A stretch of DNA of 64,000 bases, from the NCBI RefSeq assembly GCF_041146795.1, contig NC_135187.1, positions 2,910,556 through 2,974,555 of the forward strand, written 5' to 3'. Positions 29,914 through 61,853 of this stretch are shown piece after piece. Each line of letters begins with the position of its first letter. Within the stretch, counting starts at the first letter, position 1. The position numbers and the translations under genes were made by a program. The DNA comes from Maylandia zebra (Eukaryota; Chordata; Actinopteri; Cichliformes; Cichlidae). The notes under the pieces are model-generated. The model was given only the letters and a program-made list of their open reading frames with translations. It did no database searches and was not told where the DNA came from.

Positions 29914-29980
29914 TTTCCATAGAGAGGCACTTTGCATCAGCAGCACCATGCTCCAGTGCTCTGGGAGAGTTTATAGTCCT
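29914..29980 (+). promoter_or_regulatory. V1 promoter (octamer-like box and TATA-like box)
   Basis: CTTTGCAT at 29,930-29,937 differs from the immunoglobulin octamer ATTTGCAT at its first base. TTTATAG at 29,970-29,976 lies 40 bp further on. The same pair with the same spacing precedes every V segment here. Confidence 0.75.
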
Positions 29981-30055
29981 GAGAGTTGAACACTGGATGA
30001 CTGACAGCTGTCCTTCATCACAACAGAAGCCACAGAAATCCTCCTCATCAAAAAC

Positions 30056-30529
30056 ATGACTTTGATCTGCGTCCTCATCTGGACTCTCCTCTGCTGCTGC
30101 TTCACAGGTAAAGTCCAGAGAATCAAACTCCTCTCCTCTATCAACATCTGTCCCTCTGAAATGAAGCCCACAAAACCATGAAGCTGCTTTATGTTTTTGT
30201 CTCTGTGTCCTCAGAGTCCAGAGGACAGATCACAGTGACTCAGCCTGGAGCAGTGAGCTCTGCTGTGGGAGCAACTGTGAGCATCAAGTGTACGACCAGT
30301 CAGAATGTTTATGACTCTAAGCGTTTAGCCTGGTACCAACAGGTAGATGGAAACTCCCCCAAACGTCTCATTCACTCTGCTACCACTCGAGATTCAGGGA
30401 TTCCAGATCGTTTTACAGGCAGTGGATCAAACTCTGACTTCACTCTGACCATCAGTGGAGTCCAGGCTGAAGATGCAGCAGTTTATTACTGTCAGAGTGA
30501 ACACTATCCTAACAGTCAGTGGGTGTTCA
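30056..30529 (+). CDS. Immunoglobulin light-chain V segment V1 (kappa-like)
   Basis: Leader exon 30056-30107 ([17 protein letters not shown], hydrophobic) and V exon 30215-30529, separated by a 107-bp intron. The V domain starts [20 protein letters not shown] and has the first Cys in SIKC, Trp in RLAWYQQ and the second Cys in AAVYYC. CDR1 is [11 protein letters not shown]2 HSATTRD, germline CDR3 [12 protein letters not shown]. Framework 2 reads VDGNSPKR where its relatives have KDGGVPK. No defects seen; functional in appearance. Plus strand, opposite to both J-C clusters. Confidence 0.92.
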
Positions 30530-30557
30530 CACAGTGAAAAACAGTCGTACAAAAACC
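30530..30557 (+). promoter_or_regulatory. V1 recombination signal, 12-bp spacer
   Basis: Consensus heptamer CACAGTG, 12-bp spacer, nonamer ACAAAAACC. The heptamer abuts the last coding base. Confidence 0.95.
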
Positions 30558-30638
30558 TCCCTCAGTCAGACTGAACAGAAACTGAAGTGACTGCTGCAGC
30601 TGGAAGATACTGCAGAGACTGATACAGTTCACTGAGGA

Positions 30639-30711
30639 CACACACACACACACACACACACACACACACACACACACACACACACACACACACACACACA
30701 CACACACACAC
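30639..30711. repeat. (CA)n microsatellite after V1
   Basis: About 36 CA units starting about 80 bp beyond the V1 nonamer, in the same place as after V3, V6 and V7. Confidence 0.97.
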
Positions 30712-31736
30712 TCATAGAGTGAAACTGTAATTGATGGTACTCCAGTCAAATGAGCTGATATAAAAAAAAAAACACAAAGGAAATTTCACAATGCATCATA
30801 ATGAAAAATAACATTTTGTTTGACTGAAAAGAAAACATGACATTACTCAAAAAAATTTCATTTTAATTAAGTCTTCAAAGTCAGCGAGTCACTGTAATAC
30901 ATCTCTTTGACAGTAACAAATTCAGCTTCCAATGAAAACATGAAGTTAGAATTAGTAAAATAATTAAATTTCCCCTTCTGTCTTTTTTCACTGTTAAATT
31001 CTAGCTTCAATGATTACTTTGTCTTAAACTGGAATATTGGATCATCCTATAATTTGAAACTGAATTGTCCTTGTGTTTAAATAGTCTTGACAAGCACTGG
31101 ACATCTTCAAAACCTAGTGCTGATTACGGCCGACCTGGACTAGAGACTAAAACATAACTGAACATCCCATCACATCCACAGTGAACATGATAATATAGCC
31201 ACATTACAACTACTTGACTATGTTACACCTGACAAACTATCACTGTTAATATTCAGGGAGAAAACTACCACAGTACAAAGCAAAACTTGAGAAATCCTTC
31301 ACCTTCACCAGTACACCCGTGTGGTTAAATCATAAACTTAATTCAACAATGGAGTTTTCCATCTGAACTAAGTTTCCTCTCAGGATGTTAGGCTGACCGT
31401 AAACATGTTCTCTTGTCTTTTACTTTTGAATCTGTGTTTTGTTGAATGTTCTTGATTAAGGTAAGTCACACTTTCCTGATGTTGCCAACTTCCGTCACAA
31501 GGTGGCAGTATGGCAACGAACAGCAGTTACTACTTCCAGATTTCACCAAGTCCATCTTTGTCTATGGTTTTATCTCATGTTTGTTTAACTTTGGGATCAT
31601 GTTTGGTCTGTACTGAGCTGGAGATGCATGCTTTAAGTTCTTGCTGTTGATGTTAGTGATCGGTGCCTACCGCTCAGGCTAGAGACCATCACGTCCTTAC
31701 ATGTGAAACAAGAAGCAGAATCTGCAGTCTCCAGTG
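30712..31736. other. Spacer after V1
   Basis: No V, J or C homology and no recognised element in this kilobase. Confidence 0.4.
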
Positions 31737-31738
31737 TA

Positions 31739-32383
31739 TGGAAGCCCGTTTCCGCCACTAAATAAAAACAAAAAAGCTAGTATCCATAACTCGAAATTTC
31801 GAGAAAAGTAACTCGAAATTTCAAGAAATATAACTCAAAATTTCAAGTTACTTTTCTCAAAATTTCGAGTTACTTTTCTCAAAATTTCGAGTTAGCTCTG
31901 CCAATCAAAAATATACGTGAATGAGGTCCCTTTCTTGTTACCCGGAAGCATATGGCGCAGAGGAACGCGCACTCAAAAACGGATCGCAACAAATTGGCGC
32001 TTTCACGAGTACGTTTGCTGATAGTAACACCATGTGATTCAGCTAATAACACAGGGATTTCATCATTTGTGAAGCCAGGCTGAAAACACTCAGCAATCTG
32101 TGCATTCACGACTGGATGTAATACCTAGCTTAGCTGTAGCATTTGTAGCTGAGGGCTTCAGCTTCCGGGTAACGAGGAAATGACATCATTCACATAGATT
32201 ACTGATTGGCAGCGCTAACTCGAAATTTAGAGTTACTTTTCTCAAAATTTTGAGTTAATAAATCGAAATTTCGAGTTAATATGTCGAAATTTCGAGAAAG
32301 TAACTCAGAATTTTGAGAAAATAACTTGAAATTTTGAGTTATGGATCCTTTTTTTTTTTTTTAGTGGCGGAAACGGGCTTCCA
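31739..32383. mobile_element. Non-autonomous DNA transposon (MITE-like) with palindromic subrepeats
   Basis: 645 bp between TA duplications. The 23-bp terminal repeats are perfect: the left starts TGGAAGCCCGTTTCCGCCAC and the right ends with its complement. Inside each end lie several copies of AACTCGAAATTTCGAG-like words in alternating orientation (31,795-31,895 and 32,215-32,345). The core encodes nothing recognisable. Confidence 0.85.
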
Positions 32384-60325: not shown

Positions 60326-60331
60326 TTTATT
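60326..60331 (-). terminator. Polyadenylation signal of light-chain C2
   Basis: AATAAA on the minus strand 135 bp past the C2 stop. Confidence 0.65.
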
Positions 60332-60465
60332 CTTTAAAACTTTAAAGAAACTTTAAACTTTAAACAAAGCAATGAAAAATGAGAGAAGAAATTGTATTTT
60401 TTTTTTTTAAAGCTACAGAGTGCAGACTGAAAGTAAGACCAGCATGAAAGTCACAGTTAGTCAGG

Positions 60466-60791
60466 TCAGGACTGGGGACACTGGTCTCTCATCAGTGGCT
60501 CTGAGGCCACAGTGTGGGAGCCCTGGGTGGCCTCACAGGTCACAGAGCCCACCTTCATCCAGTGGTCTGCAGGGAGCCTCAGGGTGCTGCTCCAGCTGTA
60601 GAGGCCGTCGTTCTCCTGCACCACGGGGCTCCTGCTCTCCTCCCAGCTGATGCTGCCACTGCCATCCACCTTCCAGGACAGACTCCAGTCTGAGGGGAAG
60701 CCCTTGTTGGCCACACACATGACTGTAGCCTTCCCCTGTTTCAGCTCCTCACTGGAGGGACCCAGCACCTTCAGGGCGGGGCGGGCATCAC
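60466..60791 (-). CDS. Immunoglobulin light-chain constant segment C2 (kappa-like)
   Basis: 326-bp exon with the same borders and phase as C1. One C1-set Ig domain with all structural residues: first Cys in KATVMCVANK, Trp in LSWKVDG, second Cys in VTCEATQGSH, terminal RDQCPQS. Differs from C1 by Val for Leu before the first Cys and VASE for LVSE near the end. Served by J2a and J2b. Confidence 0.95.
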
Positions 60792-61399
60792 CTAGGAAAC
60801 ACCAATCAGCTTAGAGGGCACGAACCACAATTTGAATTTCTCCGTTAAGAAGTTTCTGTCAGGTGTTTTTTCTGCTCCACCAGTCATTCACTCACACATT
60901 GTTTCACTTCCCTTTAAGAAACCTCTCATGCATATCAGCACAGAGAGAATCATCACACAGTTTGAGCTGAAATATGTTCAAACTACACTGGAAATAAAAA
61001 AACAACAAAACAAAACAGAGATGTGTCAACAATTTTAAAAGATGTTAAGCTTCAACATCATCAGTTCTTCGTAATAAACAGCTTGTTCTGGATAAGAAAC
61101 TCAATACCACTACTTACCTCATGTGTTTTTTTTATTGCTTACATTGTTTTAAATGATATGATACAATAAGAACACCAGAGATCTTTATCTTCACTCTGTG
61201 CAGTTTAACTTTTTTCAGTGGAAATTGTCCTGAGTGTCTGAATAATCATTTCCAAAGCTGACTTTGTTTCTTAGGACAAAATTTATGAATAAAATATGTA
61301 ATCAGTTACACAAAAAGTTTCCTAACCTTTCATATTAAATGAAATTAAAGAAAAGAAAAGAAAATTACATTTAAAAAAAAAGCTCTAAGTCTGACTTAC
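60792..61399 (-). other. J2-C2 intron
   Basis: Shorter than the J1-C1 intron (608 vs 896 bp) after an internal loss; no extra J segment seen. Confidence 0.55.
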
Positions 61400-61437
61400 T
61401 TCCAACTTGCAGTCTGGTTCCTCCACCAAAAGTCCAC
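61400..61437 (-). CDS. Immunoglobulin light-chain joining segment J2a
   Basis: 38 bp encoding [12 protein letters not shown], donor GTAAG. Confidence 0.93.
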
Positions 61438-61476
61438 CACAGTGATACAAACTCATTGAGGCGCCGTACAAAAACC
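61438..61476 (-). promoter_or_regulatory. J2a recombination signal, 23-bp spacer
   Basis: Nonamer GGTTTTTGT, 23 bp, heptamer CACTGTG. Confidence 0.95.
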
Positions 61477-61776
61477 TCTGACTGTAGAGAGACACGGCTC
61501 TCTGTGTGACTGAACTAAACCTACAAGCCCTCAAAATACAACTTTACCATCAGAACTAGAAATAATAATGAATAATATGAAACATCCCAGATTTTCATTG
61601 GAAATTGTCCTGAGTGTCTGAATATTCATTTCCAAAGCTGACTTTGTTTCTTAGGACAAAATTTATGAATAAAATAATTAATCAGTTACACAAAAAGTTT
61701 CCTAGCCTTTCATATTAAATGAAATTAAAGAAAAGAAAATTACATAAAAAAAAAAAAAGCTCTATGGCTGACTTAC

Positions 61777-61814
61777 TTCCAACTTGCAGTCTGGTTCCTC
61801 CACCGAACGTGTAC
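61777..61814 (-). CDS. Immunoglobulin light-chain joining segment J2b
   Basis: 38 bp encoding [12 protein letters not shown]; the only J here with Tyr instead of Trp at its start. Donor GTAAG. Confidence 0.93.
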
Positions 61815-61853
61815 CACAGTGATACAAACTCATTGAGCCGCCGTACAAAAACC
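61815..61853 (-). promoter_or_regulatory. J2b recombination signal, 23-bp spacer
   Basis: Nonamer GGTTTTTGT, 23 bp, heptamer CACTGTG. Confidence 0.95.

Follow-up and report, generated by a model that had tools for sequence, protein, structure and literature searches.

Organization of the locus

We analysed a 64-kb window of the Maylandia zebra genome (64,000 nucleotides of contig NC_135187.1, from 2,910,556 to 2,974,555; 'the window' means this whole stretch, and positions are counted from its first letter), which contains an immunoglobulin light-chain locus with variable (V) segments on one strand and joining (J) segments and constant (C) exons on the other. The locus extends from 29913, where the homology unit of the first V segment starts, to 61853, where the recombination signal sequence (RSS) of the last J segment ends. 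Segments follow each other in the order V-V-V-CJJ-V-V-V-V-CJJ, and the two CJ clusters are thus in tandem, with V segments on both sides of the first cluster and, within the window, to the left of the second.

All V segments lie on the + strand and end in an RSS with a 12-bp spacer (12-RSS). They are V1 (30056..30557; leader 30056-30107, V exon 30215-30529, 12-RSS 30530-30557), V2 (35038..35548; leader 35038-35089, V exon 35197-35520, 12-RSS 35521-35548), V3 (39640..40150; leader 39640-39691, V exon 39799-40122, 12-RSS 40123-40150), V4 (46326..46836; leader 46326-46377, V exon 46485-46808, 12-RSS 46809-46836), V5, which is described below, V6 (55180..55681; leader 55180-55231, V exon 55339-55653, 12-RSS 55654-55681) and V7 (57224..57725; leader 57224-57275, V exon 57383-57697, 12-RSS 57698-57725). 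In the six V segments other than V5, the leader comprises 17 codons and one further base and is followed by a 107-base intron with GT/AG ends and a V exon that is open up to the signal, and the promoters have an octamer-like CTTTGCAT at −126 and a TTTATA box at −86 at fixed spacing. Long (AC)n arrays lie shortly 3′ of the signal in four of the seven V segments (V1, 30638-30711; V3, 40231-40303; V6, 55762-55860; V7, 57806-57874).

On the − strand, the C1 constant exon (42767..43092; first base 43092, stop codon ending at 42767) is grouped with J1.2 (43989..44065; coding part 43989-44026, RSS with a 23-bp spacer, 23-RSS, 44027-44065) and J1.1 (44359..44435; coding part 44359-44396, 23-RSS 44397-44435), and the C2 constant exon (60466..60791; first base 60791, stop codon ending at 60466) by J2.2 (61400..61476; coding part 61400-61437, 23-RSS 61438-61476) and J2.1 (61777..61853; coding part 61777-61814, 23-RSS 61815-61853). 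The J ends were counted from the splice donors, which are GTAAGA in J1.2 and GTAAGT in the other three. All four J segments encode (W/Y)TFGGGTRL before this GTAAG donor, and the phase of each donor matches that of the acceptor of both C exons. Both C exons are open frames with a C1-set domain and a C-terminal RDQCPQS, hence with a cysteine near the C terminus, and C1 and C2 are 97.4% identical over an open reading frame (ORF) of 114 residues. Pfam domains were tested in both C exons and in one of the seven V segments, V1, which gave a V-set match.

Recombination signals and the V5 pseudogene

Both strands of the window were scanned for V(D)J signals with spacers of 12 and 23 bp, with a cut-off of 13 matches at the 16 heptamer and nonamer positions scored. 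Eleven sites agreed with the consensus at 16/16, seven with the 12-bp and four with the 23-bp spacer, and all eleven are read on the + strand. Each V segment carries an exact CACAGTG-12-ACAAAAACC signal (heptamers at 30530, 35521, 40123, 46809, 52503, 55654 and 57698), and each J segment, coded like the C exons on the − strand, an exact CACAGTG-23-ACAAAAACC signal (heptamers at 44027, 44397, 61438 and 61815). These eleven exact signals bear out the anatomy and coordinates given in a preliminary description of the sequence, namely V segments on the + strand with 12-RSSs and two J-J-C clusters on the − strand with 23-RSSs. In 40 Markov-shuffled windows the mean number of sites per window was 1.45 at 13 matches and 0.125 at 14, and no site scored above 14. 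The seven 28-base V signals have three variable columns, every one due to V4, in which 3 of the 12 spacer bases differ from the others. If each of the seven V segments and two CJ clusters had been oriented at random, the chance of all V pointing one way and both clusters the other would be 2 × (1/2)^9 = 0.004, a purely formal figure, because duplicated copies inherit their orientation.

The only further sites to reach the cut-off were two at 13/16, at 44620 (− strand; a reverse 23-RSS-like site) and 29901 (− strand; 12-RSS-like). We discarded them as candidate extra or deleting elements, because chance alone accounts for 1.45 sites of this score per window. An exact CACAGTG heptamer also occurs within framework region (FR) 1 of all seven V segments (30231, 35213, 39815, 46501, 52195, 55355 and 57399), and was rejected as a signal because the nonamer position matches at only 4/9 bases with a 12-bp spacer and 0/9 with a 23-bp spacer. 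Searches of both strands of the window for further V (with a V profile) or C (with tblastn) gave nothing above noise, the remaining matches having E values of at least 0.74; the search for J segments went through their signals and not through homology. No Rfam family matched the window at gathering scores.

V5 (48581..52530, + strand) has been disrupted by a retroelement within the stretch from 48581 to 52071. A promoter remnant (48581-48658) is separated from the coding part by an inserted long interspersed element (LINE; approximately 48659-52010), which encodes a reverse transcriptase domain, matches an endonuclease slightly below the Pfam cut-off and ends in a GAACCTT array (51990-52014) followed by the remaining V5 upstream sequence. 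The leader is truncated (ending at 52071) and has no start codon, and the V exon (52179-52502) has an in-frame TGA at the end of complementarity-determining region (CDR) 2, so V5 is a pseudogene and cannot make a light chain. Its 12-RSS (52503-52530) is intact, and V5 may thus still be joined, without a product. Seven V segments with signals, as first described, are present, but with V5 dead six of them look intact. Moreover, a decayed, weak V-like remnant reaching from the end of FR1 to CDR2 lies on the + strand between V4 and V5 (47246..47359; tblastn E values of 4e-4 and 1e-3, profile hidden Markov model E value of 0.0037).

Predicted joining by inversion and possible second joins

With the V segments on the + strand, the J segments on the − strand and both kinds of signal pointing to the right, coding ends can meet only by inversion. 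In the mechanism that we propose, RAG would pair the 12-RSS of a V segment with the 23-RSS of a J segment of either cluster, and because the two signals have the same direction on the chromosome, a coding joint would form only by inverting the intervening DNA, with the signal joint staying in the chromosome. A V segment to the left of a CJ cluster would be joined by turning the J-C part round, one to the right by being turned round itself, and the J segment would then be spliced to the C exon of its own cluster. We infer that RAG uses these signals and that the locus is expressed and may be edited.

To count the outcomes, we enumerated all joins within one chromosome, weighting the possibilities equally, so that the counts below are possibilities and not frequencies. 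All 24 first joins of six intact V with four J segments were inversions, each with a correctly placed C exon, and five V and three J segments remained after each of them. When V5 was included, all 28 joins were inversions, over V-J distances of 2.4-31.3 kb. The model thus agrees with the earlier claim that every V to J join inverts the DNA between the segments and retains the rest. In a control model with the V segments turned round, only 6 of the 24 joins gave a VJ-C and 18 were lost on circles, and it is therefore the opposite polarity that allows each cluster to draw on V segments from left and right.

A very unlikely alternative is that the V segments rearrange mainly by deletion to J-C clusters of their own orientation outside the window, while the local CJ clusters serve V segments elsewhere. 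Some light-chain V segments of cod and zebrafish are indeed oriented like their J and C, and the window stops 2.1 kb beyond the last J signal. Against this, all 28 V-J pairs here are 12/23-compatible at distances well within the 81 kb reported for zebrafish joins, both CJ clusters are intact, and no V-J pair of the same orientation was found in the window.

The preliminary description further held that retention of the other segments allows secondary joins. Inversional joining does leave them possible, with 360 second joins in the model (intact V segments), but replacement of the first light chain is the smaller part. In 192 of the 360, a further inversion gives a new VJ-C while the old one is kept, whereas 75 replace the old VJ-C (45 deletions and 30 inversions). 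Another 75 keep the old VJ-C without making a new one (30 inversions and 45 excisions), and 18 lose both the old and the new (9 deletions and 9 excisions). Thus, with 75 second joins replacing the first VJ-C against 192 leaving two, inversion alone is not editing.

Conservation and divergence of the V cassettes

To delimit the repeated V unit, we used all V pairs except V2-V5, V3-V6 and V3-V7. In these pairs, homology around the V segment starts 459-700 bases before the signal (617-638 without V5 and the pair V6-V7) and stops 42-203 bases past it. Some long matches between adjacent V segments (V6-V7 from +45 to +1500 and V5-V6 from +1152) were disregarded, as they reflect overlap of the compared stretches. 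Among the six intact V segments there is no variable column in the 120 bases upstream of the start codon and no difference in the 52-base leader, and the intron varies in 1 of 107 columns. Over 143 bases before the start codon, eight columns vary in the ungapped comparison, where a small indel at the far end puts V7 out of register. Downstream of the signal, the first 60 bases are free of variable columns in five V segments, the count omitting V4, which is different there.

Within the V exon, variable codons are few in FR1 (2/25) and FR3 (3/33) and common in CDR1 (9/15), FR2 (8/15), CDR2 (7/7) and CDR3 (8/12). Synonymous differences (pS) are 0.18-0.29 in the CDR and FR2 blocks compared with 0 in FR1 and FR3, and at fourfold sites with fixed first two bases the change is 1/7 in the CDR and FR2 blocks compared with 0/30 in FR1 and FR3, numbers too small to settle the matter. 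The ratio of nonsynonymous to synonymous change (dN/dS) is clearly above 1 in CDR2 only (3.1); it is 0.96 in CDR1, 0.60 in CDR3 and 0.47 in FR2, and is undefined in FR1 and FR3. Around the signals, from about −620 to between +50 and +200, the cassettes have a gene-conversion-like pattern, with near-identical promoter, leader, intron, FR1 and FR3 and divergent CDR1-FR2-CDR2 and CDR3.

Mantel correlations between blocks over the seven V segments were mixed, with r = 0.12 (p = 0.23) for CDR1-FR2, 0.03 (0.43) for CDR1-CDR2, 0.40 (0.05) for CDR1-CDR3, −0.13 (0.51) for FR2-CDR2, −0.34 (0.91) for FR2-CDR3 and 0.61 (0.008) for CDR2-CDR3, and they do not demonstrate exchange of single CDR blocks. Homogenisation of the frame around older, diverse CDR blocks would be our preferred explanation, ranked above selection alone. 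Recent duplication with fast change in the CDRs may also have produced the cassette pattern.

Probable duplication history

V2 with its downstream flank (35053-37550) matches the V5 region (52033-54527) at 95.7%, V3 (38766-40303) matches V6 (54304-55834) at 97.1%, and the C regions (42081-43300 and 59771-60999) match at 89.5%. Because these regions match in pairs, the repeated V-V-CJ order probably arose by block duplication. Between the two clusters, the J-C introns are 0.47-0.84 identical in 100-column windows, with many gaps, whereas in the five windows spanning 43265 to 42767, an interval that holds the whole C exon and ∼170 bases before it, identity with 60466-60964 is 0.97-1.00. An older duplication, of which the coding part was later homogenised, would fit this contrast.

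Class of the locus and comparison with other teleosts

The locus is very probably a teleost locus of the kappa group (L1/L3 type), with two tandem (V)n-C-J clusters whose V segments are opposite to J and C and whose coding joints would form by inversion. The 12/23 arrangement, with a 12-RSS in seven of seven V and a 23-RSS in four of four J segments, is that of kappa. Lambda V segments carry a 23-RSS and lambda J segments a 12-RSS, according to the rule quoted in the cod study (PMC11223323), which is the reverse of what the segments in the window carry. Three points weigh against this assignment or limit it. The L1/L3 label covers L1 and L3 jointly; the V12/J23 arrangement also fits sigma; and the window ends ∼2.1 kb beyond the last J signal, past which further clusters may lie, possibly in the other orientation.

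A sigma (L2) locus is highly improbable here. Sigma loci share the V12/J23 arrangement, and their rule that V, J and C have the same orientation is broken by the L2 of stickleback. The V segments of the window are opposite to J and C, which is the L1/L3 pattern, and the V exons have a CDR2 of 7 residues and 13-16 residues between the cysteine and tryptophan around CDR1, which do not point to the shorter CDR1 and longer CDR2 by which sigma is described relative to other isotypes (PMC5192425). A slight further pointer comes from the C-domain search, where among the 60 listed of 9118 matches six were labelled kappa and none lambda, most had no class, and the best was an IgA1 heavy chain. Still less probable is a decayed locus that no longer makes light chains, as the destroyed V5 and the V remnant beside it might suggest, given that six V, four J and two C segments keep their reading frames open, with exact signals and splice sites, and that the promoters of the intact V segments are invariant over 120 bp.

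The locus has close parallels in other fishes. Opposite V polarity, which the preliminary description had put down to some teleost light-chain types, is the usual arrangement in teleost L1/L3 loci according to PMC3570791. Zimmerman et al. (2008, PMC3014032) described V opposite to J and C in the zebrafish clusters on chromosomes 1 and 19 and attributed cDNA clones to inversional joins, some within one cluster and others between clusters as much as 81 kb apart. These clusters have the polarity, the tandem arrangement and the V12/J23 signals of our locus; the inversional joins inferred from cDNA are those of another species, zebrafish. In torafugu, V segments flank J-C on both sides and are described as joining by inversion (PMC5241823). 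Its L1 and L3 loci resemble ours in having opposite V segments on both sides of J-C, with inversion predicted to turn either V or J-C, but they are spread over many scaffolds, some gapped, and V orientation is mixed at the L1 locus of chromosome 2.

Most kappa V segments of Atlantic cod are inverted (PMC11223323). This kappa (iota-1) locus on chromosome 5 likewise has tandem V-J-C mini-clusters, conserved promoters and signals and recent duplications, but it is far larger (104 V, 98 J and 99 C), and five of its V segments are oriented as J and C. Zebrafish L3 clusters, written as (V4-J-C-V2) and (V2-J-C-V2) (PMC5192425), also interleave V on both sides of J-C and differ in segment counts and, as notated, in having one J per cluster. 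One J is described for most teleost kappa clusters, as in catfish (PMC5192425), and three or four J segments with a C for scaffolds of sterlet (PMC5985310); the two J segments per C found here are therefore a minor difference. Hence, of the claim that the interleaved layout is specific to this window only the exact count stands, since tandem clusters of opposite polarity are described for zebrafish as well as cod, and torafugu and zebrafish are both reported to have J-C units flanked by V on either side.

Neighbouring genes and elements

A pro-opiomelanocortin gene with NPP, ACTH and opioid domains (27244-27801) lies 2.1 kb to the left of the V1 unit, and the homology search found no V or C match above noise left of this gene. 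Further to the left are a Tc1/Sleeping Beauty-like transposase (20136-21221) with an open frame of 361 amino acids, an ORF of 240 amino acids (14744-15463) without a Pfam match at an E value of 0.01, and a piece of a gene with a fibrinogen C domain (12944-13441, − strand). ORFs like exons of a TatD-type DNase (3020-5618, − strand), putatively TATDN1, were tested with Pfam in one part (3831-4211), where the match was below the curated cut-off. A literature search for tatdn1 in connection with light chain, teleost and immunoglobulin found nothing linking them.

Implications for light-chain joining in fish

The arrangement and its inversional consequence had been published by 2008 at the latest (PMC3014032), where retention of the segments was argued to serve editing, and as a discovery the locus is ordinary. 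Because the commonest second join in the topology model adds a second VJ-C, two C clusters of opposite polarity might give dual light chains by default unless these are excluded in another way, with the framework-homogenised V cassettes and their divergent CDR blocks as a stock of exchangeable binding loops; we regard this as a doubtful proposal with a small chance of being right. What the locus offers is a compact case, with two C, four J and six intact V segments in 32 kb without gaps, small enough for every possible join to be counted. Long reads on this locus could show whether fish B cells replace their light chains or merely add to them.

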